DNA from: Herbiconiux moechotypicola
Lineage (GTDB): Bacteria > Actinomycetota > Actinomycetes > Actinomycetales > Microbacteriaceae
Length of the DNA stretch: 64,000 nucleotides
Assembly: GCF_024979255.1 (NCBI RefSeq)
Contig: NZ_JANLCN010000003.1
Span: 248,001 to 312,000 of the forward strand
Direction of reading: 5' to 3'
The notes under the pieces: model-generated
Seen by the model: the letters and a program-made list of their open reading frames with translations, nothing else
What the model was told of the DNA's origin: nothing
Database searches by the model: none
Program-made: the position numbers and the translations under genes
Shown: positions 43,944-57,444 of the stretch, in pieces
Position numbering within the stretch: the stretch's first letter is position 1
Layout of the letters: each line of letters begins with the position of its first letter

Positions 43944-46900
43944 TCACGACGCCCCTGAACGAGGTTGCTCCGCGGCACCAACCGCAGACCGAGCGCCGGG
44001 ATCGCCAGTGTTGCCTGAAAGCACCTGCCACAAGTCCCTCAAGTCAGAACCCGCGAGGTCTGACCCCCGCGGTACGTGACGAGCCCAATCAACGTCAGAC
44101 AGCTGTGAAAGGAACTCACGCGCCTCTGACGGACGGAGAGACCCTGGTTCGTGACCCTGCGCGAACTCCGCACCGAGCGACTTGGCTGCCGTTCTCGGAA
44201 CTGAACTCATTCGCATCACCACGCCTGCCTCGGTGTCGACCCCGTGATAGAGCATCGCACCGAGCAAGTTGACGCTTCGCAGGTCGCTCTCGCTGACGTT
44301 CTCAAAATCGATACCGCTTGTGGGCAACTTGGAGAGGGCTGTAATCCCCCACGTACCCGCCGTCGCAAGGTTTCGGTAGATGGCCTTTGTTGCCTCCGTA
44401 AGCGCGGCAGTCGGGGTTGCCGCATCGCCGAAGTATCGCTCGGCGATGGACTTGATGGAGACGCCAGCAACCCAGTCAGCAGCAATCTTCGCTGCCCTGT
44501 CGCCGATCCCAGCGCCGACGCCACTCAGCTCGTCGATGCTGTCTCTGATCTGCGGTAGTTGAAGCATGACCCGCATGAGGTCAGGCAGAGCGCTCGACGT
44601 GACATCACCAAACAAGCTGCCCGGTTGCCAATCACTCACATCGAGAGACTTGTCCATCCGACGCATCTCGCCCATCGCAGAACGGATGCCCTCGGGAGTG
44701 AATCCAGTGCTATCGGCGAGCGTCGCCGTCTCAACGCTCTGTGCAAGCTCAGCAGCATAAGCCCGCGTCGCCTCCAAGAGCCTAAGACCCTTCTGCCGTT
44801 CAGCGGGACTCGCCTCGGCTAGCGACGAGTATCCGAACGTGTTGCGTAGCAGCAGCTCGGTTTCAGACAGAACAGCGTCAAGGTTCTTCTTCTGAGCGAA
44901 TAGGTGCGCGACGTAACTACGGAAGTCCGCCCATTGATCGTTGTATAGCGATCGCTCCAGGTTGAGCAGTCGGCCAGCATCTTCAAGTTCATCCAGGAGG
45001 ACGACAAGCCTAGAAACAAGCGCTCCCGCTTGTTCTGACAAGAACTGGGCCAGCGACTCACGATCGCCCTCTTTGCTGGAGATCCCGACGACGCCGATGC
45101 TGTCCTGATCCACACGGCCTGCTCTGCCCGCGAGGTTCCAGAACTCGCGGGGCGTCATAGGACGGTTGAACTTTCCGCTGGGCAGATTCCGACTTGCGAG
45201 GAAGATGGACGAGACCGGGAAGTTCAGGCCTTGAGAGAGTCCCGTCGTGGCGACCAGAATCCGCAACTTTCCCTGCTCGGCGAGCCATTCCATCAGTGCG
45301 CGCGTTTCGTCGGAGAGTCCTGCGTGATGTACCCCGATCCGACGAGCGAGCATGCCAATGAGCGCGTAATCTTCGCTGATTTCTGCTGCCAGATAGCGTT
45401 GCACCAAGGCAATGTCGGGATCATCCACTTCCGGAAGTTCTCCTGACAACTCCTCGGCAATTGTCCAAACGGTCGGGATAGTGGGGCAGATCACGATCGC
45501 AGTCCCCCGCTCAGACAGCGTCAGCGCCGATGCGCCAGCGATCTTGCTGAGACTGTTCTTGATACTGGAAAACGTGCGATCAAGTTGAGGTGCGTCACCA
45601 ATCTGGTAGAGGCCCGAGACATTCATTGATGAGCCGCTTGTCAGCATGGGCTCGAAAGACAGTCGCCAGTCCCTACCCCGCCCGGAGGGCGGAGCTACTG
45701 CCGACACAAGACCGATCAGCCGATCGTTGGGCTGCCAAGGGGTCGTTGCAAGACTGATGCTCTTTCCAGTTCTCGGAGCCAGCCATCGGGCGAGGTCATC
45801 GCCGTTCGGCACATAAGGCATGAGCAACAAGAAGTTCGCCTGGGTGCAGTCTCGTTTGACGGTAGCCAGCAATAGTTCGATGCGGATACCGCGGTCGGAA
45901 TCTTCAATGTTGTGCGCCTCATCGAGCACCAACAACGCGAGCGGGCGAGCGATTGCCGCATTGCGGATTGCCAGGTGGAGCTTCTCCGGAGTGGCCACCA
46001 GCACGTCAAAGGGAGACTCGTTGAGCATGCCAGCTTCGATGTCATCTATCTCCACAGCGGAGGTAAGTTCCTCAACTCGAATGCCGCTCGGCCCGAGGTC
46101 ACGCCTTAGCCGTCGAGTGATCTGCGAGACGAGCGCCCGTGTTGGCGCCACATACGCGACCCAGCCTTTGTCCTGCTTGAACTGGCTAATAGCTTGAACG
46201 ATCTTGAACTCGGCGAGGATGGTCTTCCCAGCGCTCGTCGGCAGGTCGACAACGACTGCCGCGCTCGCCGGGTCCAAGAGCCCCTGTTCCTGAATCGCGA
46301 TGCGCTGCGGAGGCAGCATCTCAAACATGGAACGGTGTCGGGTCGCAGTTTCGACGATGCTCCGAATCTCAGGACCGATTCGTGTGACAGACCACAGGGC
46401 ACCCGCCACCATGCGCTGGGCCATCGCGCGCTGCCATTGGAGAACCACTACGAACGCTGGATCAGCAGACTGCTGTGCCGCGGAGATCGCTCGGTCGAAG
46501 TGGAAGTCGAGTTGCGTCGCGATGTCGGCTGGCTCCCCTTGCATGAGGTAGGTAGCGACCATTTCCGAGAGTCTGGCCCAGTGGTACAGGGCTACGAGGC
46601 GCCACCCAGCGACCTGCAGGTCTTCGGGCCGTGATTGCGCGTTGAAGAGAAGCTCCTCGTTCTCTTTCTGTTCGGCTCGCAGCCGCGCCACAGTCTCTGC
46701 GACGCCTTCCAGGTCTTGCCATCCGTCTTTGCGAAGAAGCCGAGTCCAAATCTGACCTAGGTCACTGAGAACACGTGTGTCCCATGAGCCGTTGGATCGG
46801 AAGAGCTCGGGGTTGACTTCCCGCTCGCGCATCCAGGCCCGATACTCCGCCCAGCGGTCCGAACAGTATGCGAGTGCACCGAGCTGAAGGACTTGATGTA

Positions 46901-47249
46901 CCAGCGCCTCCAACGAGTCGAGCTCCAACGGAAGCGCCCGAAGAAGAGCGAACGCCTCGTGGGCCGCGGCCTCCGCCACCGCGGCGTCTGATGCGCCCGA
47001 GTGCAGCGATACCTGCGCGAGGGCCTCGATCCCTTCGCTGGCGACGATCTCGTATGCGAAGGCGACGTCTTGGATGAGAGCCTCGGTCGCGGCGTCGTGA
47101 GGGCCTTCGCGGTGAAGCTGGCGACCAAGGTTCGAGTCGACGTACATGGAGGCAGCCGCGTCGTGGGCCGCCTTCACCCGGTCGGCGCCGAGGGCTTCGA
47201 TTGCCCAGTGTGATCTGAGGCGACTGATTGCTTCGCGGGAGATGGTCAT
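43944..47249 (-). CDS. DEAD/DEAH-box superfamily 2 helicase, HamB-like
   Basis: A protein of 1101 residues. A helical N-terminal region of about 330 residues precedes the helicase core: motif I TSAGKT at 338-343, DEAH at 443-446, GVHHAGL, a TGLSQGLNFP segment and motif VI GRAGR. This is a Ski2-like build with a long C-terminal region. Its ATG overlaps the stop of the nuclease gene (ATGA), so the two are coupled. The order and domain types match Hachiman hamA-hamB and the related AbpAB. Helicase activity is secure; the defence assignment is inference. Confidence 0.8.
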   Translation of the reverse strand: MTISREAISRLRSHWAIEALGADRVKAAHDAAASMYVDSNLGRQLHREGPHDAATEALIQDVAFAYEIVASEGIEALAQVSLHSGASDAAVAEAAAHEAFALLRALPLELDSLEALVHQVLQLGALAYCSDRWAEYRAWMREREVNPELFRSNGSWDTRVLSDLGQIWTRLLRKDGWQDLEGVAETVARLRAEQKENEELLFNAQSRPEDLQVAGWRLVALYHWARLSEMVATYLMQGEPADIATQLDFHFDRAISAAQQSADPAFVVVLQWQRAMAQRMVAGALWSVTRIGPEIRSIVETATRHRSMFEMLPPQRIAIQEQGLLDPASAAVVVDLPTSAGKTILAEFKIVQAISQFKQDKGWVAYVAPTRALVSQITRRLRRDLGPSGIRVEELTSAVEIDDIEAGMLNESPFDVLVATPEKLHLAIRNAAIARPLALLVLDEAHNIEDSDRGIRIELLLATVKRDCTQANFLLLMPYVPNGDDLARWLAPRTGKSISLATTPWQPNDRLIGLVSAVAPPSGRGRDWRLSFEPMLTSGSSMNVSGLYQIGDAPQLDRTFSSIKNSLSKIAGASALTLSERGTAIVICPTIPTVWTIAEELSGELPEVDDPDIALVQRYLAAEISEDYALIGMLARRIGVHHAGLSDETRALMEWLAEQGKLRILVATTGLSQGLNFPVSSIFLASRNLPSGKFNRPMTPREFWNLAGRAGRVDQDSIGVVGISSKEGDRESLAQFLSEQAGALVSRLVVLLDELEDAGRLLNLERSLYNDQWADFRSYVAHLFAQKKNLDAVLSETELLLRNTFGYSSLAEASPAERQKGLRLLEATRAYAAELAQSVETATLADSTGFTPEGIRSAMGEMRRMDKSLDVSDWQPGSLFGDVTSSALPDLMRVMLQLPQIRDSIDELSGVGAGIGDRAAKIAADWVAGVSIKSIAERYFGDAATPTAALTEATKAIYRNLATAGTWGITALSKLPTSGIDFENVSESDLRSVNLLGAMLYHGVDTEAGVVMRMSSVPRTAAKSLGAEFAQGHEPGSLRPSEAREFLSQLSDVDWARHVPRGSDLAGSDLRDLWQVLSGNTGDPGARSAVGAAEQPRSGAS

Positions 47250-48025
47250 GCCGCGGTCTCCAATACGACCGAAGCGTCTGCGACCTGCGCCAGTAATTCG
47301 GCGGTTAGGTAGATCGCGACGAGCGCCATGCTGGTTGGTTCTTTCACGGATTGGGCAAGACTGGAGGCTCTGGCCCGAAGGTCTGCCTGGTTCGGTTCGG
47401 TCGCGTGGATGAGAACGCCGTAAATGATGACATCCAGGCTGTCTGCTAGGTAGGTCGCAAGCGCCTGACGGAAACTATCCAGCCATGATTTACCTACCGA
47501 GTTCATCGTGAGGTATCGAATCGCCCATCTGCTACGGTCGTCGCCCGCGTTGAGCCCGGATAACTGACTATGAAGCCCGTGACTTCGGCTCGTCAGCAAG
47601 CCGGGGGGCCATGCCTGCTGGTGGCTGGTCTTCACCTCGGCAAAGACGAACCGAACTCGATCGCTCGCGTGGAATCCAATAAGGTCCACGCCCCCTCCGC
47701 TGCTGTTGGGGTTTCGCGTCGAGCGACTATCCGGCCAGGGGAACTCGCATCCAACTTCCGTGATCAGATGATGTTCGGCGAGCGCCTCCCCTACTCGCCA
47801 CTCATCGAACGAGTCAGGGGCGGTGAGGATGCTCTCCAAACGCTCGTTCTCGAAGTCGGTCTTTGCCAGGTCGGCGAGGGCCTCGCGCGCCTCCTGGACG
47901 CCAGTGTCATCTCGCAGAATCGCTTGCACATCAGACGCGATGTGGGCGACATCCGACTCTTCGAGGAGGTGACCGGTCGCGGAGACTGCGCCGTGGTCGA
48001 CGGTGTAAGCGAGCGATCCGACCAC
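47246..48025 (-). CDS. PD-(D/E)xK nuclease-like protein, HamA/DUF1837-like
   Basis: A protein of 259 residues starting at GTG 48025 behind GGGAGAGG. A restriction-endonuclease-fold active site is visible: Glu80 in WRVGE, Asp114 in GGGVDLIGF and Glu130-x-Lys132 in FAEVKTS. The remainder is mixed alpha/beta without membrane segments. Length and partner agree with HamA, the DUF1837 effector of Hachiman, which degrades DNA when its helicase is activated. I cannot confirm the family without a profile search; another nuclease-helicase system is possible. Confidence 0.6.
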   Translation of the reverse strand: MVGSLAYTVDHGAVSATGHLLEESDVAHIASDVQAILRDDTGVQEAREALADLAKTDFENERLESILTAPDSFDEWRVGEALAEHHLITEVGCEFPWPDSRSTRNPNSSGGGVDLIGFHASDRVRFVFAEVKTSHQQAWPPGLLTSRSHGLHSQLSGLNAGDDRSRWAIRYLTMNSVGKSWLDSFRQALATYLADSLDVIIYGVLIHATEPNQADLRARASSLAQSVKEPTSMALVAIYLTAELLAQVADASVVLETAA

Positions 48026-48385: not shown

Positions 48386-49231
48386 TCAGATGTCGAATAC
48401 TCGCTCGTGCAGCTCGCCGTCTTCTGCCCATTTCACTTCGACGCTCGTCGGGATGCCGTCAGCGAATGAGAGATCGTAGCGAAAACGCTGGAGTTGGCCA
48501 GCATGCACGGTACGGGGCCGATCGCCTTCGTACAGGATGTTCGCAGGCCGATCCCCGGCTCGTGCGGTGAGCTCGTCAGCATCGACGTCGCCTTCGTTTC
48601 TCACGTCAATGAACCGACGCACGCGGTTCCTCAGACGACCGCGGCTGTCCTGCTCGGAGATGTTATCGCTGCCGCTCTGCACGACCAGCTTCACTCCGCT
48701 GCGGGTCGGTACCGGCTCAGGAGTACCGAGTCCGAGCGCGGCGATGTCGCCTTCGATGGCCGCCCAGACCTTGGCGATCAGCTCATCGGCGTTCGCGTAG
48801 GTGCCGTAGAGGCTCCTCTGGGCCAGGTCGTCCCTGAACTTGCGCAGCGCCGCAAGCTGCTCGACATCGACGTCGTTGGGATGGGGCGCCGTCGAGAACC
48901 AAAGGTGCACGCGCTTGCCGTCTGCGATGGCGTGGTCAATCTCCTCGACCGTTCCGGAGATGGCTGTCGGCGTGGCCGTGCCAATCCTGCTGCCGAAGAT
49001 GCCAACGAGGGCGTCCGCGTTTTCGAGCAAGGCGGCGTTGATGATCGCTTGCGGGTGGTCCCCCGCCTGCGGCACGACCGACTCCCAGCGCAGCGGCACC
49101 ACTACGACGCCGCGGGTTCGAGTGTTCGACTCGTTCCAGCTCGAGATCGCGTGCAACGCGGCCTGACGGCCGTCGTTCACGTCACCCGGGGACGCGATCA
49201 TCATGAAGAGCACCGTGGCGGCAGATGTCAT
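48386..49231 (-). CDS. DUF4062-domain protein
   Basis: A protein of 281 residues; ATG 49231 places the domain at the N-terminus. MMIASPGDVNDGRQAALHAI, the WESVVPQAGDHPQAIIN stretch, ENADALVGIFGSRIGT and GTVEEIDHAI are the DUF4062 pattern, a TIR-like fold often fused to STAND NTPases in defence genes. Here it has only a C-terminal beta-rich tail of about 90 residues and no NTPase. It lies upstream of, and on the same strand as, the nuclease-helicase pair. A sensing or effector role is possible but unproven. Confidence 0.7.
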   Translation of the reverse strand: MTSAATVLFMMIASPGDVNDGRQAALHAISSWNESNTRTRGVVVVPLRWESVVPQAGDHPQAIINAALLENADALVGIFGSRIGTATPTAISGTVEEIDHAIADGKRVHLWFSTAPHPNDVDVEQLAALRKFRDDLAQRSLYGTYANADELIAKVWAAIEGDIAALGLGTPEPVPTRSGVKLVVQSGSDNISEQDSRGRLRNRVRRFIDVRNEGDVDADELTARAGDRPANILYEGDRPRTVHAGQLQRFRYDLSFADGIPTSVEVKWAEDGELHERVFDI

Positions 49232-49361
49232 ACCCCGAGCATACGAAGCGGCGGCGCAGCCTTGTCGACAGGTCCGACGCACCGCGAGCTCGACCCGTGA
49301 ACTGACCATGCCCGCGCGCGAAAACTCACCACGGCAGGTGTCGTGCAGACAGGCGCTTCTG

Positions 49362-50568: not shown

Positions 50569-53500
50569 TCACAGTGGCGGGATGGCCCGGGAAGGAGCCG
50601 AAGGACGGGATGGCTCGTGCCGGTCATCTTCGCTACGAGCCAGGCTCCGGGCCCGGTCGAGTGCGACGCGGGCTCGGGCGGCGTCGATCTTCTGTGCCTC
50701 GTCGTCGGGCGGCGTGCCGAGCGGGCCGGGTTCGGTGATGCCGTAGCGGTCCCGGTAGGCCGCGACGACGACAGCGAGCCGCCGCCAGGCTGCCGCCCGC
50801 TTCGCGTCCTTGGGCTCTGCCCCGAGCGCGGTCGTCCACGGCTGACGGTCGTTGAGTGCGGTATCGAACAGGGTGGTGGCGCGGGCTTCGATGAGGTCGC
50901 GGCGTTCGGTGAGCGCCTGCCGCATCTCGGGCGGCATGGTGCCGGTGGCTTCGGGGATGAGGCCGGCGATGAGCCGCGGGGCCTTGCGGGTGCGGCCGGC
51001 CCCTGCGGGTCTCGTGGTGGCGCGGGCGACGCGGTAGTGCAGGACGGCGGCGATGTCGTCGGCATCCCCGAACCCGCGTGCCTTGATGAGGCGCGGCAGC
51101 AGGGTCTCGACGTCGTGCTGGTTGGCCTCAGCCCGGCGCAGCTCGGCGGTGAGTGCTCCGAGCGCGGGTGAGGCGAGTGCGTCGTCTGCTTCGTCGTCGG
51201 TGAGGCCGGAGGCTCGGATGAGCGCCGTCCAGCGGTCGTGCTGGGCTGCCGCGGCCAGCGTCTCGTATTCGGCGGCGAGCTGGGCGATCGAGCCCCAGGC
51301 GTCCTGCTCGGCGGTGATCGTCTCGTGGGCGGAGAGCTCGGCGCCGACGTGCTGCAGAACCCCGAACAGCACCGACCTGGCGGTGGCCTCGGTGTTGTCG
51401 CCGGGGTGGGGGCGGTCGTGGGCGGGGTCGGGCTTGTCGATGGCGACGTAGGCGATGTTCTGCTCGCTGCCGCGGGTCATGGCGACGTAGAACGTCTCCC
51501 TGGTCATCGAGGCGTCGGCCAGGACGTGCGAGGAGTCGACCGTGACGCCCTGGGCCCGGTAGGACGTCACCGCGTAGCCGAGGTCGACGTGCTCGGCCGC
51601 GTACTCGGCCGGGAGCACTACCGAGGTGCCTCGCTTGCGGCCTGCGCGGCGGATGGTGAGGGAGCCGTCGTCGCGGACCTCGGTGACCGTCCACCTGTCG
51701 CCGTTGCGGACCCAAGCACGGCCGGCGCGCAGGCGGCGGTCGTTGTGGCGGGTGATGACGGTATCGCCTGCCGCGGCTCTCGTGCCGTCGTGCAGCTCGA
51801 CCTCGCGGCGGGCGTTCACCGTGCCGTCGAGGATCAGGTCGGCCCGCGCCCGCTGGTTCAGGGCGAGGACGGATTCGTTGGAGTCGGTGACCAGGATGCT
51901 CGCGCGTCCGGCGAGGGTGTCGACGCGCCAGGCGGTGTAGGCGGCGTCGATCATCTCCTCGGTCTCGCCGCCGCGGATGCGGTCGTGCTCGGCGTAGGTG
52001 TCGATGGCCTCGGTGCGGCCGTGCCGCAGACCGAGGGAGGCGGTCCTCTCCCAGGCCTGGGTGAAGCGGTGCAGGGTCACCAGCTTGGGCGCGTCGTCGC
52101 GGTCGTTGACGAGGAGTGCGAACGCGCCGCCGGCGGTGACTGATTGGAGCTGGGCGTGATCCCCGACGAGCAGCACCTTCGCCCCGGCCTCGGCCGCAAG
52201 TGCGGTGATGCGGTCGAGGGAGAGCGTGCCTGCCAGGGACGCCTCGTCGACGATGACGAGCTGCCCTTCACGGAACGTGGCTCCGGTGCGCTCGTGGGTG
52301 TCCAGCCATTTCGCCGTGTTTTCGGTCTGGATGCCGAGGTCGTCGGCGAGGACCTGCGCCGCGACCGCGGATGGGGCGAGCCCGACGGCGGACCCGGCGC
52401 CGTGCTCGTGCTCCCACGCCCGCCGCAGCGCTGACATGGCGGTGGTCTTGCCTGCCCCGGCCGGCCCCACGAGCACGTCGACCAACCGGCCGGAGAGCGC
52501 GATCTTGGTCAGCGCGCCGGCCTGGTCGGGACCGAGCATCCGGCCTTTGCGATCGGGCCTGCTCGTGATCCGCTCGACCGTGGCGAGCGGGACGGTTGGG
52601 GCGGTCGTGGTGCGGGCGCGCTCGAGGAGGCGGTCTTCGGCTGCCAGCAGCATCTCGGAGGAGAGCAGTGCCGAGTGCTTCGGGCGGAACACCGAGGTGC
52701 CGTCCGGGCGGCGGAACGCGGCTGGGCTGGAGGCGAGCTCGGGCGGGGTCAGGCGCAGGGAGGCGGCTTCGGCCGCGTCGACCACGAGCCCGACGATCGC
52801 CTCGCGGTCTTCGACGGTGGCGAACCTGTAGCCCATCGTCTGCCTTGCGGCCTCGGCGGTGAGGTTCCAGCGGTGCCAGGTGGAGCGCTTCTCACCGACT
52901 GTTGTCACGACGTCCTGCCCGAGGGAGGCGATCACGTCCAGCGGCACGTCGTCCGCTCGCAGCAGCAGCGGCTCCTCGTTCGCCGTCACGCTCCGCGCCC
53001 ACCCGGTCGCGTCCGCGCCGAGCACCTGCCCGGCGCGGTGCCGCCAGGAGGCGGTCAGGTCGGCGAGCGAGTGGACCTCCTTCTCCGAGCGGGTGGAGAG
53101 TGTCGCCTGGGCGCGGAGCTTCATGATCGTCGCCGGCGACGGCCGCCGCCCATGCTCGGAGACGTAGCTGTCGATGAGGCGATCGGTCTCGGCGTCGATG
53201 TGGCGGGCGCGGGTCGAGAACTCCTTGACCAGCCCCTCCGGCACGGCGGCGATCGCCCACGCGGGGTTGCGGTCACGGCCCATGTCGCGGGCCTCCCACT
53301 CGACGCCGAACGTGCGGGTCAGGTGGTCGGCGAACACGGCCTCGTGCAGTTCGGAGAGGGCGACGACCGCGGCGTGCATCGGCCGCCCGTCCAGCGACCG
53401 CCACTTGCCGTCGAGGACGGTCTGCACCTTGTTGCTGATGACGACGTGCGTGTGCAGGTGCGGGTCGCCCGCCCGGGAGTCGTAGTGGTCGAACGCGGTA

Positions 53501-54126
53501 GCGATCAGGCCGCGGACGTCGACCTGTGCGACCGCGCCGTCGCGGCCGGTTGCGCCCGTGCGCGTGGCTGCAACCTCCCGCTCCATGAACGCAACCACCT
53601 CCGCAACCGCCGCATGATGGGCGTCCGCGATGAGCGCCTGCGTGCCCGCGTCCGCAACCGCCCACAGCACGCTCGCGGACTTCGGGATCGAGAACGTGAA
53701 ATCGAACCCAGCGACCGCCCGCCGCGACCCCCGCTCGTTCTCCTCCACCTCGATCAAGGCGACCGCCTCCGCACGCGAGGCAGGCCCGAGACCCGGATCG
53801 AGCGCGGCGCTACGAGCCTCGATCCGCTCCGCCACCGTGAGGTACTCCGGGTAGGCGCGGCCGAGCGGTACCCCGATGATCGGGTCACGGCCCATACCGA
53901 CGAGGAGCTGGAGCTGGGCCTCGGAGACCTGATCGCCCACCGCGAGCTGCCCGCCGCCAAGCCCGGCGACACCTGCCCCGAGCCACCGGCCCGGCGGGGT
54001 GCCCTCGGCGGCGTAGTACCTCGTCAACGGGGTCGAGAGAGACCTATCGCCATCACCGGCCGCGACCGTGCGCAGCAGGTACTTGTAGCCATCACCGGCC
54101 GACATCACGCGCATTGATACGGTCAT
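50569..54126 (-). CDS. MobF-family relaxase/helicase (TraA/TrwC type)
   Basis: A protein of 1185 residues. The relaxase domain has HLHTH at 223-227 (the three-His metal motif) in FDHYDSRAGDPHLHTHVV, and candidate catalytic Tyr residues near the N-terminus. A RecD-like helicase follows, with GPAGAGKTTAM at about 610 and LVIVDEASLAG. ATG 54126 begins the relaxase fold; the longer upstream frame has no supporting sequence. It nicks the element's oriT and unwinds the transferred strand. An oriT is likely nearby, for example in the short divergent gap 54127-54200, but was not identified. Confidence 0.92.
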   Translation of the reverse strand: MTVSMRVMSAGDGYKYLLRTVAAGDGDRSLSTPLTRYYAAEGTPPGRWLGAGVAGLGGGQLAVGDQVSEAQLQLLVGMGRDPIIGVPLGRAYPEYLTVAERIEARSAALDPGLGPASRAEAVALIEVEENERGSRRAVAGFDFTFSIPKSASVLWAVADAGTQALIADAHHAAVAEVVAFMEREVAATRTGATGRDGAVAQVDVRGLIATAFDHYDSRAGDPHLHTHVVISNKVQTVLDGKWRSLDGRPMHAAVVALSELHEAVFADHLTRTFGVEWEARDMGRDRNPAWAIAAVPEGLVKEFSTRARHIDAETDRLIDSYVSEHGRRPSPATIMKLRAQATLSTRSEKEVHSLADLTASWRHRAGQVLGADATGWARSVTANEEPLLLRADDVPLDVIASLGQDVVTTVGEKRSTWHRWNLTAEAARQTMGYRFATVEDREAIVGLVVDAAEAASLRLTPPELASSPAAFRRPDGTSVFRPKHSALLSSEMLLAAEDRLLERARTTTAPTVPLATVERITSRPDRKGRMLGPDQAGALTKIALSGRLVDVLVGPAGAGKTTAMSALRRAWEHEHGAGSAVGLAPSAVAAQVLADDLGIQTENTAKWLDTHERTGATFREGQLVIVDEASLAGTLSLDRITALAAEAGAKVLLVGDHAQLQSVTAGGAFALLVNDRDDAPKLVTLHRFTQAWERTASLGLRHGRTEAIDTYAEHDRIRGGETEEMIDAAYTAWRVDTLAGRASILVTDSNESVLALNQRARADLILDGTVNARREVELHDGTRAAAGDTVITRHNDRRLRAGRAWVRNGDRWTVTEVRDDGSLTIRRAGRKRGTSVVLPAEYAAEHVDLGYAVTSYRAQGVTVDSSHVLADASMTRETFYVAMTRGSEQNIAYVAIDKPDPAHDRPHPGDNTEATARSVLFGVLQHVGAELSAHETITAEQDAWGSIAQLAAEYETLAAAAQHDRWTALIRASGLTDDEADDALASPALGALTAELRRAEANQHDVETLLPRLIKARGFGDADDIAAVLHYRVARATTRPAGAGRTRKAPRLIAGLIPEATGTMPPEMRQALTERRDLIEARATTLFDTALNDRQPWTTALGAEPKDAKRAAAWRRLAVVVAAYRDRYGITEPGPLGTPPDDEAQKIDAARARVALDRARSLARSEDDRHEPSRPSAPSRAIPPL

Positions 54127-54200
54127 GTTCCTAGGTGTCCTCGGGGTGGCTCTCGCTGGTGTCGCCGTGGACGACAGAGCGTCGCCAATACGATCGGAAT

Positions 54201-55082
54201 GTGAAAACTCCGGCCGTGCGCATCGTCCCGACAGTTCTCGCTGTCGTGGCCGTCGCCTTCGGACTGTTCTCGGCCAGCGTCGCGATCTGGGGCTCGTGGT
54301 GGCGGTTCTCCGGCATGCCGACCGCCGAAGAATGGTCGGCTTTCTTCGGGGCATCCGCTCTCATTGCACTCGGGTTCGCGTGGTACCAGATTCGTCAGGT
54401 AGACCAGTCGAACAAGGCGCTAATCGCGTCGAACGAGTTGGCTCGCCGGGTCAACATCGAAGCAGTTAGGCCCAGGGTTCAGGTTTCGCTGGAGCCCACG
54501 CGATTCGTCCAAAAGAACCGCGGTGCACCAGTAGAGGGCACCCTTCACATCGCGGTACGAAACATCGGGGTGAGCCCGGCGCATGAGGTACGTCTGAGTG
54601 TGAGCCCACCGTTCACATCGCTGGCGACGTTCTTCAAACCCGGCATGATGCGGGCGCACTTCGCGGAAGTCAATGAGGCCTTCGACGGAAAGGTGCGCTT
54701 TCGGACACTCAATCCGGGCAACACATACATCTGGTTTCTCGGGCGAGTCCCGGAATTATTCGCCGACGAGTCAGGAGTCCCTCGTCGTTGGGAAGTCGAA
54801 GCCGAGTACATGGGGACGGCATCCTCCGAGCCGTTCCGCGAAACGTTCATCCTTGACCTGGATGTCGAGAAGCGCATCGAACTGCCGGTCGACCCACTCG
54901 TGCGGATCGGCAAGGACATTGAAGTCGTCGGAAGCAAGCTCGAAGCCATCAAGCGCGTTGTGCCGCAGAAACTTACACTTGACGATGGTTCTGCACCGGA
55001 ATCTCGTCAGCGCAACCTCGGATCACGACCGTCAGTAGTCCGCACTCGGCGAGCGCCTACGTGGTTGCGAAGACGGCGTTGA
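54201..55082 (+). CDS. Unknown membrane protein
   Basis: A protein of 293 residues from GTG 54201 (CGGAA just upstream), divergent from the relaxase. Two hydrophobic segments lie at about residues 10-30 and 48-66. A short linker then leads to a soluble domain with QVSLEPTRFVQ, IAVRNIGVSPAHEVRLSV and an Ig-like beta pattern. The C-terminus is Arg-rich. I do not recognise a family. The topology suggests a membrane-anchored cytoplasmic domain. Confidence 0.6.
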   Translation: MKTPAVRIVPTVLAVVAVAFGLFSASVAIWGSWWRFSGMPTAEEWSAFFGASALIALGFAWYQIRQVDQSNKALIASNELARRVNIEAVRPRVQVSLEPTRFVQKNRGAPVEGTLHIAVRNIGVSPAHEVRLSVSPPFTSLATFFKPGMMRAHFAEVNEAFDGKVRFRTLNPGNTYIWFLGRVPELFADESGVPRRWEVEAEYMGTASSEPFRETFILDLDVEKRIELPVDPLVRIGKDIEVVGSKLEAIKRVVPQKLTLDDGSAPESRQRNLGSRPSVVRTRRAPTWLRRRR

Positions 55083-56352: not shown

Positions 56353-57444
56353 ATGCCGAAAACCAACGACCATAAAAGCGACCACCGCCTACGGGTTGGC
56401 TCGCTGTTCTCCGGGTATGGCGGACTCGACCTCGCAGTCGAGGAAGTCTTCGACGCCCGCACGATCTGGTTCTCCGAGATCAACGAGCCCGTCGCCCGCG
56501 TCTTCTCGCACCACTGGCCCGACGCCCCCAACCTCGGAGACATCACCACCATCGACTGGAACACCGTCGAGCCCGTCGATGTGCTCTGCGGCGGATTCCC
56601 CTGCCAGGACGTCTCGACCGTTGGGAAGATGGCCGGCCTCGCCCCCGGCACCCGCTCCGGCCTCTGGGCACACATGGCGACGGCAATCGAGAAGATGCAA
56701 CCCCAATGGGTGGTCATCGAAAACGTCCGCGGATTGCTCTCCGCACCCGCGATCCGCCCGGCACCCGAAGGAGACGAAGATGAGCGACGCAACCCCGAAC
56801 CCGCAACCCCCGGCGATGCAACCCTTCGCGGCGTGGAACCCGACCCGTGGGATCTGGGAGACCAGCCAGCCCGACCTCTACGGGCACTTGGCGCCGTACT
56901 CGGAGATCTGGCCGACCTCCGGTACGACGCGCAATGGATCGGCCTTCCGGCTTCCGCCGTCGGCGCACCACATCCCCGATTCCGCATCTTGATCCTCGCC
57001 AACCGCACTCTTCCGAACCCCCCTCGCCTCGGACGCCGCGCGCGGTGGGGAGAGCTTGGATCAAGTCAAAGCGCGGCGCGGGACAATCGCCTTGAGTCAC
57101 CAGATCATCGACCTCGTGACGGAGCAGAGGAGGCGGCATACGCCCGAGGAGACCTTCTCGCTGATCGCGAACTTCTTCAACGCTGGGGACGCCACGCTCC
57201 TGCTATCGCCCAATGGGAGCGCACAACCGGACGACTCGCCCCCGCGCCGGCAATCGTGAACGAGGGGAACAGCCCCCAGCCAGCGCCGGCCTTCGTGGAA
57301 TGGCTCATGGGGTTGGAACCCGGATGGGTCACGAGCCCGAGCCTCGGACTTACGCACGCGCAACAACTCACCGCTCTCGGCAACGGCGTGCTCCCAGCAC
57401 ACGCCGTCGCCGGCGTTCGCGCGCTGAGGTTGAGTGATGCGTGA
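56353..57444 (+). CDS. DNA C5-cytosine methyltransferase
   Basis: A protein of 363 residues. Motif I FSGYGGLDLA (19-28), motif IV GGFPCQDVS with catalytic Cys84, motif VI ENVRG (123-127), motif VIII GAPHPRFR (204-211) and motif X ALGNGVLP near the end are all present. The region between VIII and X (about 212-280) is Arg-rich and low in complexity. No restriction enzyme is adjacent, so it is an orphan methylase, perhaps protecting the element from host restriction. The middle of the gene also carries a conserved-looking second frame. Confidence 0.9.
   Translation: MPKTNDHKSDHRLRVGSLFSGYGGLDLAVEEVFDARTIWFSEINEPVARVFSHHWPDAPNLGDITTIDWNTVEPVDVLCGGFPCQDVSTVGKMAGLAPGTRSGLWAHMATAIEKMQPQWVVIENVRGLLSAPAIRPAPEGDEDERRNPEPATPGDATLRGVEPDPWDLGDQPARPLRALGAVLGDLADLRYDAQWIGLPASAVGAPHPRFRILILANRTLPNPPRLGRRARWGELGSSQSAARDNRLESPDHRPRDGAEEAAYARGDLLADRELLQRWGRHAPAIAQWERTTGRLAPAPAIVNEGNSPQPAPAFVEWLMGLEPGWVTSPSLGLTHAQQLTALGNGVLPAHAVAGVRALRLSDA
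56780..56992 (+). CDS. Nested overlapping ORF inside the methyltransferase gene
   Basis: Read one base out of frame from the methyltransferase, ATG 56780 follows AAGGAGA (56768-56774) at 5 bases and encodes 70 residues: MSDATPNPQ, then AAWNPTRGIWETSQPDLYG, PYSEIWPTSGTTRNGSAFRL. I recall this Trp-rich pattern from actinophage and actinobacterial methylase-linked proteins. The frame stops at TGA 56990-56992. The same frame then continues with LFRTPLASDAARGGESLDQV (from 57008) and ALSHQIIDLV, open to 57259, which also matches that family. It may be a real overlapping gene, or the remnant of a longer one. Confidence 0.5.
   Translation: MSDATPNPQPPAMQPFAAWNPTRGIWETSQPDLYGHLAPYSEIWPTSGTTRNGSAFRLPPSAHHIPDSAS

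Follow-up and report, generated by a model that had tools for sequence, protein, structure and literature searches.

A putative recognition subunit encoded in a +1 frame nested within a C5-cytosine methyltransferase gene of Herbiconiux moechotypicola

Why should a DNA methyltransferase gene carry, inside its own coding sequence, a second reading frame with its own start signal? The question is raised by a stretch of 64,000 nucleotides from Herbiconiux moechotypicola (contig NZ_JANLCN010000003.1, positions 248,001 to 312,000; the whole stretch is called the window below), taken from a genome of 4.28 Mb in 51 contigs. The methyltransferase frame, which we term alpha, is an intact open reading frame of 363 residues at 56353..57444 (+), with motifs I-VIII and IX-X in a single frame; the second frame, termed beta, starts at the ATG at 56780. 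We found that beta is a genuine, conserved and selected overlapping gene. It is quite probable that the locus encodes a two-subunit C5-cytosine DNA methyltransferase in two overlapping frames, with a recognition subunit, beta, nested in alpha. Alpha would supply the catalytic domain and the S-adenosylmethionine (AdoMet) site (motifs I-VIII, then IX-X). Beta would be started from its own internal Shine-Dalgarno sequence and ATG, in the +1 frame and wholly inside alpha in the nested form, and would supply the part found between motifs VIII and IX of one-chain enzymes. Beta would then assemble with alpha as the recognition subunit; the heterodimer, the recognition role and the methylation are all things that we infer.

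The two frames can be followed directly in the window. Alpha shows the conserved fold and the catalytic PCQ motif by which PF00145 defines C5-cytosine DNA methyltransferases. Motifs I, IV, VIII, IX and X were assigned as follows: motif I, LFSGYGGLD, at 56404..56430 (+); the catalytic PCQ motif (IV), GGFPCQDVS, at 56590..56616 (+); the motif VIII region, GAPHPRFRILILA, at 56962..57000 (+), where beta reads the same DNA in the other frame; and, within a C-terminal part at 57166..57405 (+) that also holds a helix, the motif IX-like FVEWLMGLEPGWVT (57292-57333) and motif X, QLTALGNGVLPAHA (57364-57405). An earlier note on this DNA, made from the sequence alone, had described the methyltransferase frame as intact through GDLADLRYDAQW and motif VIII; this was confirmed, and the frame continues intact through motifs IX-X. 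The Shine-Dalgarno sequence of beta, AAGGAG at 56768..56773 (+), lies six bases before the ATG, and the extended AAGGAGA leaves the five-base spacing that the note had given. The first part of beta (56780..56992, +), in the +1 frame relative to alpha, comprises 70 residues and a TGA at 56990..56992 (+), as the note had read it. It overlaps alpha motifs VII-VIII, contains a conserved W..W..WPTSG segment and matched phrog_1008 with E=1.4e-9. Past the TGA, which is a sense codon in close relatives, the same frame stays open for 88 codons to a second TGA at 57257-57259; this remainder (56993..57259, +) contains the FRTPLASD/ARRGTIALSHQIIDL part and includes the family-like stretches already pointed out there, LFRTPLASDAARGGE and ALSHQIIDLV. 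Over nearly its full length the beta of the window is 76% identical to that of locus L033 and 75% identical to that of locus L034.

Comparison with relatives showed that the +1 product is shared. Translation of both frames of L003 revealed an unbroken beta nested in an unbroken alpha, and in L003, L033 and L034 one continuous beta frame of about 140-165 residues spans the site of the window's TGA. Both a true overlapping gene and a decayed longer partner, two of the possibilities that the note had offered, are thereby borne out. Frames were counted in 96 sequence-unique genome loci (window included) and 95 viral loci, each with the amino-terminal part (N-part) of alpha and with beta. Beta lay in the +1 frame in 91 of the 96 genome loci and in 95/95 viral loci. 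Among the 91 genome loci with a +1 beta, 80 carry the IX-X part in the alpha frame (77 of those 80 with alpha open throughout), 5 carry it in the beta frame and 2 in the third frame, and in 4 it was not found; the corresponding viral numbers were 52, 31, 2 and 10.

The Shine-Dalgarno sequence of beta is kept beyond the needs of the alpha protein. When the best start candidate per locus was taken, which biases toward a match, and the 3-13 bases upstream were inspected, a six-base match to AAGGAGGT preceded the beta start in 65 of 95 genome-group loci (four annotated records among them) and in 4 of 95 viral loci. No four-base match was present in 7 genome-group and 32 viral loci, and one viral locus had no start candidate. 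For finer comparison we started from 63 nested loci, the window among them, chosen for an intact alpha, an N-part at least 65% identical and, save in the window, a beta free of stops; removal of near-identical loci left 56. The EG motif of alpha was recognised in 42 of these 56. Its Gly codon was GGA in 40/42 alphas, compared with 574 of 1903 Gly codons overall, and its Glu codon was GAA in 42/42, compared with 415 of 856. The alpha protein has no need of those particular codons, but a ribosome-binding site does.

Selection on each frame was then read from the codon positions. Of the 56 loci, 46 with a full N-part were kept (10 dropped) and arranged in 23 disjoint pairs, whose sequences are nevertheless related, so that p-values are indicative only. 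Mean differences at alpha positions 1, 2 and 3 were 0.080, 0.059 and 0.270 in the alpha-only N-part, and 0.121, 0.064 and 0.146 over the VII-VIII overlap (56800-57000). There, alpha position 3 differed less than in the N-part in 22/23 pairs and all codon positions were constrained, in agreement with the note's remark that both frames look selected. In region C (57016-57140) the values were 0.373, 0.093 and 0.076, and alpha position 1, which is beta position 3, exceeded alpha position 3 in 23/23 pairs. Region D (57170-57259) gave 0.148, 0.115 and 0.314, and region E, the alpha-only end, 0.218, 0.188 and 0.501. Among loci fetched by alpha alone (13 pairs) the overlap effect was seen in 13/13 and the position flip in 12/13; of 21 viral pairs, 20 showed the overlap effect. 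Because of these differences along the gene, selection is seen to act first on alpha, on both frames over VII-VIII, on beta in mid-gene with little sign of alpha, and on alpha again at the end. The codon-wise test of both frames across homologues that the note had proposed thus yielded a clear signature in the 23 pairs, and the picture by which it would have given up the idea, homologues without the second frame or its Shine-Dalgarno sequence and synonymous changes freely breaking the frame, was looked for and is not what we observed.

The same passage of selection from alpha to beta and back would be expected of programmed frameshifting, also raised in the note, in which the ribosome reads alpha motifs I-VIII, shifts +1 into beta and returns for IX-X to make one chain. 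Frameshifting is used by phages. One phage example is described in PMC2884959. However, beta is selected over VII-VIII too, upstream of any shift point, where a shifted product would read alpha; beta also has a conserved Shine-Dalgarno sequence and start of its own, and two shifts would be required (slippery sites were not scanned). We therefore regard a frameshifted single chain as very improbable.

What beta might contribute was examined through its matches and through the alpha model. All of 10 close betas matched phrog_1008 ('DNA methyltransferase') and no other PHROGs family. This family also matches the C-terminal part of alpha, and appears to be a one-chain version in which beta runs on into IX-X. 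Such continuity is found in L123, L139 and L011, near relatives of nested loci; the beta of the nested locus L113 is 98% identical to that of L139 over the aligned part. In phages with IX-X in the beta frame, alpha ends 188-311 bases into the beta match in 30/31. The DNA between motif VIII and the C-terminal part, 57013..57165 (+), is coding sequence shaped by beta, and its alpha product, a passenger linker, is little constrained as protein, as seen from the substitution pattern. The linker is also predicted to be disordered: the predicted local distance difference test score (pLDDT) of the alpha model falls below 50 at residues 226-230 and 232-267, after a mean of 92-93 at residues 201-220 in the motif VIII region. 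The C-terminal part that follows is supported by the model and by sequence, and shows the substitution pattern of the alpha frame in regions D and E. Alpha is thus predicted by its model to have no folded target-recognition domain.

Several results weigh against beta as a selected recognition subunit. For sequence this rich in GC, the length of the +1 frame is unremarkable: after shuffling of synonymous codons within alpha, p was 0.73 for the window and <0.05 in 2 of 56 sequences, and the length of the open run was dropped as support for beta. On run length, then, the second frame of this GC-rich gene could be open by chance, an explanation to which the conservation of the +1 product at the protein level across relatives and the codon-position flip leave practically no probability. 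In 4 of the 96 genome loci beta lies in the alpha frame, and in 1 in the +2 frame. Most loci of the main set were retrieved using beta, and the sequences are related rather than independent. The share was checked on loci from alpha-only searches, taking the best matches of each. At N-part identity of at least 45%, beta was in the +1 frame in 39 of 44 of these loci, with 2 in frame and 3 partial matches without it; below 45% (n=53), beta was absent from 34, in the +1 frame in 18 and in the alpha frame in 1. The position flip at 57016-57140 was absent from the viral pairs (10/21); we judged the viral alignment of region C unreliable across LPTP repeats and split forms. The pLDDT of alpha is also below 50 at 88-94 and 138-172, so that low confidence is not specific to the linker. 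No Pfam family was matched by the betas at E 0.01; one Pfam match, to the part of the window's beta after the TGA, reached E 0.17, short of the cut-off, and was taken as chance. A PDB sequence search with beta gave four matches at E<=10, the best at 0.23, with unrelated names, and these were likewise taken as chance; the predicted fold of the continuous beta-IX-X of L139 (pLDDT 47.6) was too poor to search for known recognition domains. With a poor beta model, and neither structure nor activity tying beta to recognition, beta could instead be a real overlapping protein that regulates or inhibits alpha, or an anti-restriction factor. We consider this unlikely, since beta runs on into IX-X in split relatives and sits at the place of the recognition domain, and since the alpha model is without such a domain.

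The origin of the recognition subunit proposed here was approached with a profile of the beta N-part, which was found beside alpha in 256 loci (duplicates kept) and in the +1 frame in 249. A beta-like stretch following motif VIII in the alpha frame was found among the loci searched only in L018, where the match was weak (16.8 bits with the profile, 36.6 bits with tblastn). The preponderance of the +1 frame, together with this single occurrence in the alpha frame, suggests at the sequence level that the beta N-part arose by overprinting. An in-line one-chain ancestor was dropped, L018 being its sole candidate among the loci searched. In L012, L044/L060/L277 and L140, beta is in frame with alpha motifs I-VI and motifs VII-VIII are out of frame; these loci and the +2 locus L144 are probably frame-changed or degenerate and decaying copies. 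In two phage loci, L191 and L213, LPTP-type repeats of the recognition region stand in the alpha frame and the WPTSG part is still in +1, and repeats of this type seem able to switch frame.

We compared the locus with two-chain enzymes already known. The small subunit of M.EcoHK31I is reportedly nested in another frame of the open reading frame of the large subunit. The window's enzyme would resemble it in having two polypeptides, the beta frame being nested in another frame of alpha. In M.EcoHK31I motif IX belongs to the smaller polypeptide and motifs I-VIII and X to the larger, and the predicted recognition domain was assigned to the larger subunit (PMC3404938). In contrast, IX-X are in the alpha frame in the window and in the 80 of 91 genome loci counted above, and the selection pattern of the window's family points to beta as the site of recognition. 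The locus most likely belongs to the M.EcoHK31I kind, as a variant in which motif IX has its place in alpha. Matches in cyanophage and Methylorubrum megaplasmid sequences led on to further phages with a related layout. In six of these phage loci (L300, L303, L304, L307, L308 and L309) a +1 open reading frame ends inside the annotated methyltransferase and contains, besides a stretch with TP or SP and an end resembling motif IX, an R/W.G.M..G segment that reads MRNG in five loci and has diverged in L309; the annotated frames have I-VIII and an end resembling motif X, the latter weakly in L309. Compared by layout description only, these six share the motif layout reported for M.EcoHK31I. Nine betas of this layout, from phages and one megaplasmid, aligned with the betas of the window's family (hhalign probability 98.4%, 80 columns, mainly the N-part).

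A second known enzyme, M.AquI, has a second chain that holds the distal variable region and IX-X (PMC3404938). It is matched in this respect by the relatives with IX-X in the beta frame (5/91 genome and 31/95 viral loci, for example L139, L123 and L011), unlike the window, where IX-X are on alpha and beta is nested. The out-of-frame HNH insertion of ShiLan is similar in being an open reading frame concealed in another frame of an actinophage methylase gene; it differs as a mobile inserted endonuclease of patchy distribution, whereas beta occurs in almost every close relative examined. No HNH endonuclease match was found in the betas, which gave phrog_1008 in PHROGs and nothing in Pfam at E 0.01. 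Beta is not described in the passages of PMC9957025 that deal with actinophage methylases and their insertions, and the nested family was not found described among the literature matches listed.

We incline, at slightly better than even odds, to a broader view: a large, mostly unannotated class of C5 methyltransferases would keep its recognition subunit as an ancient +1 overlap of motifs VII-VIII, with the N-part overprinted and frame-changing indels shuttling IX and X between subunits to give nested, M.EcoHK31I-like and M.AquI-like forms. Enzymes of the M.EcoHK31I type would then have their recognition domain on beta, not alpha. The arrangement recurs in actinobacteria and in the phages of this group; cyanophages, phages of Vibrio and Sulfitobacter and the Methylorubrum megaplasmid have related layouts. 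Long same-strand overlapping genes with both products conserved have seldom been established, and annotation easily misses them; the gene calls in the phage records examined omit the conserved beta start, or the whole of beta or alpha. In 5/5 examined phage records that annotate alpha and a beta-frame gene (L062, L063, L297, L298 and L299), the annotated start lies 174-432 bases downstream of the start of the beta match. One of them, L297 of Mycobacterium phage Babsiella, has gp55, a 'DNA methylase domain protein' (1678-1986), annotated within gp54 (1140-2987). In L301 alpha has no annotation, and a hypothetical gene begins 210 bases past the start of the beta match; in L305 (952-1650, Vibrio phage) and L306 (949-1677, Pseudomonas phage) it is the beta frame that has been annotated, as a hypothetical protein. 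A Microbacterium plasmid entry, whose gene table is incomplete, lists beta as hypothetical and no alpha. Nested and split forms differ by frame changes, and so offer a natural series on the division of an enzyme between two frames; should beta be the recognition subunit, a small protein could be swapped to change specificity.

The copy in the window is itself interrupted. Of 190 loci, 8 (the window among them) have stops inside the aligned beta, at scattered positions, and 182 have none, which argues against the programmed readthrough that the note had considered; the window's TGA at 56990 recurs in none of the 190. Changes on each branch were counted by parsimony with seven outgroups. Against L033, the window had 7 changes versus 7 in region C, 8 versus 0 in region D and 9 versus 2 in the alpha-only region E; against L034, the counts were 4 versus 9, 8 versus 1 and 6 versus 5. 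Relaxed selection on the window's beta was not shown in region C, and region D was raised, but so was alpha-only E relative to L033. We think it doubtful, though possible, that the window has a whole beta, its TGA being either a sequencing error or a codon that is read through. The region C counts, no higher on the window branch than in its relatives, and the 88 open codons beyond the TGA would fit this, whereas the excess in region D, even with region E also raised, and the lack of a stop at the same place elsewhere do not. In view of the counts in regions C, D and E, the interruption may reflect recent decay or a sequence error, or may be tolerated. The enzyme of the window is probably impaired or dependent on partial beta products.

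Of 16 genomes of the genus, 3 had beta matches, the window's being one of them. The methyltransferase is adjoined by a TrwC relaxase with a helicase domain (50569-54354, -), suggesting an integrated conjugative or mobilisable element around it; the methyltransferase as a mobile gene fits both this neighbour and the distribution in the genus. Further along, at 43944-48025 (-), lies a candidate two-gene defence system with strong PADLOC matches to PDC-M23B (a DEAD-box helicase of 1101 residues, also HamB-like) and PDC-M23A (259 residues), the two genes overlapping by 4 bases. The gene at 48386-49309 (-) has weak similarity to DUF4062, below the cut-off, and matches the N-terminal part of the PADLOC candidate PDC-S60.
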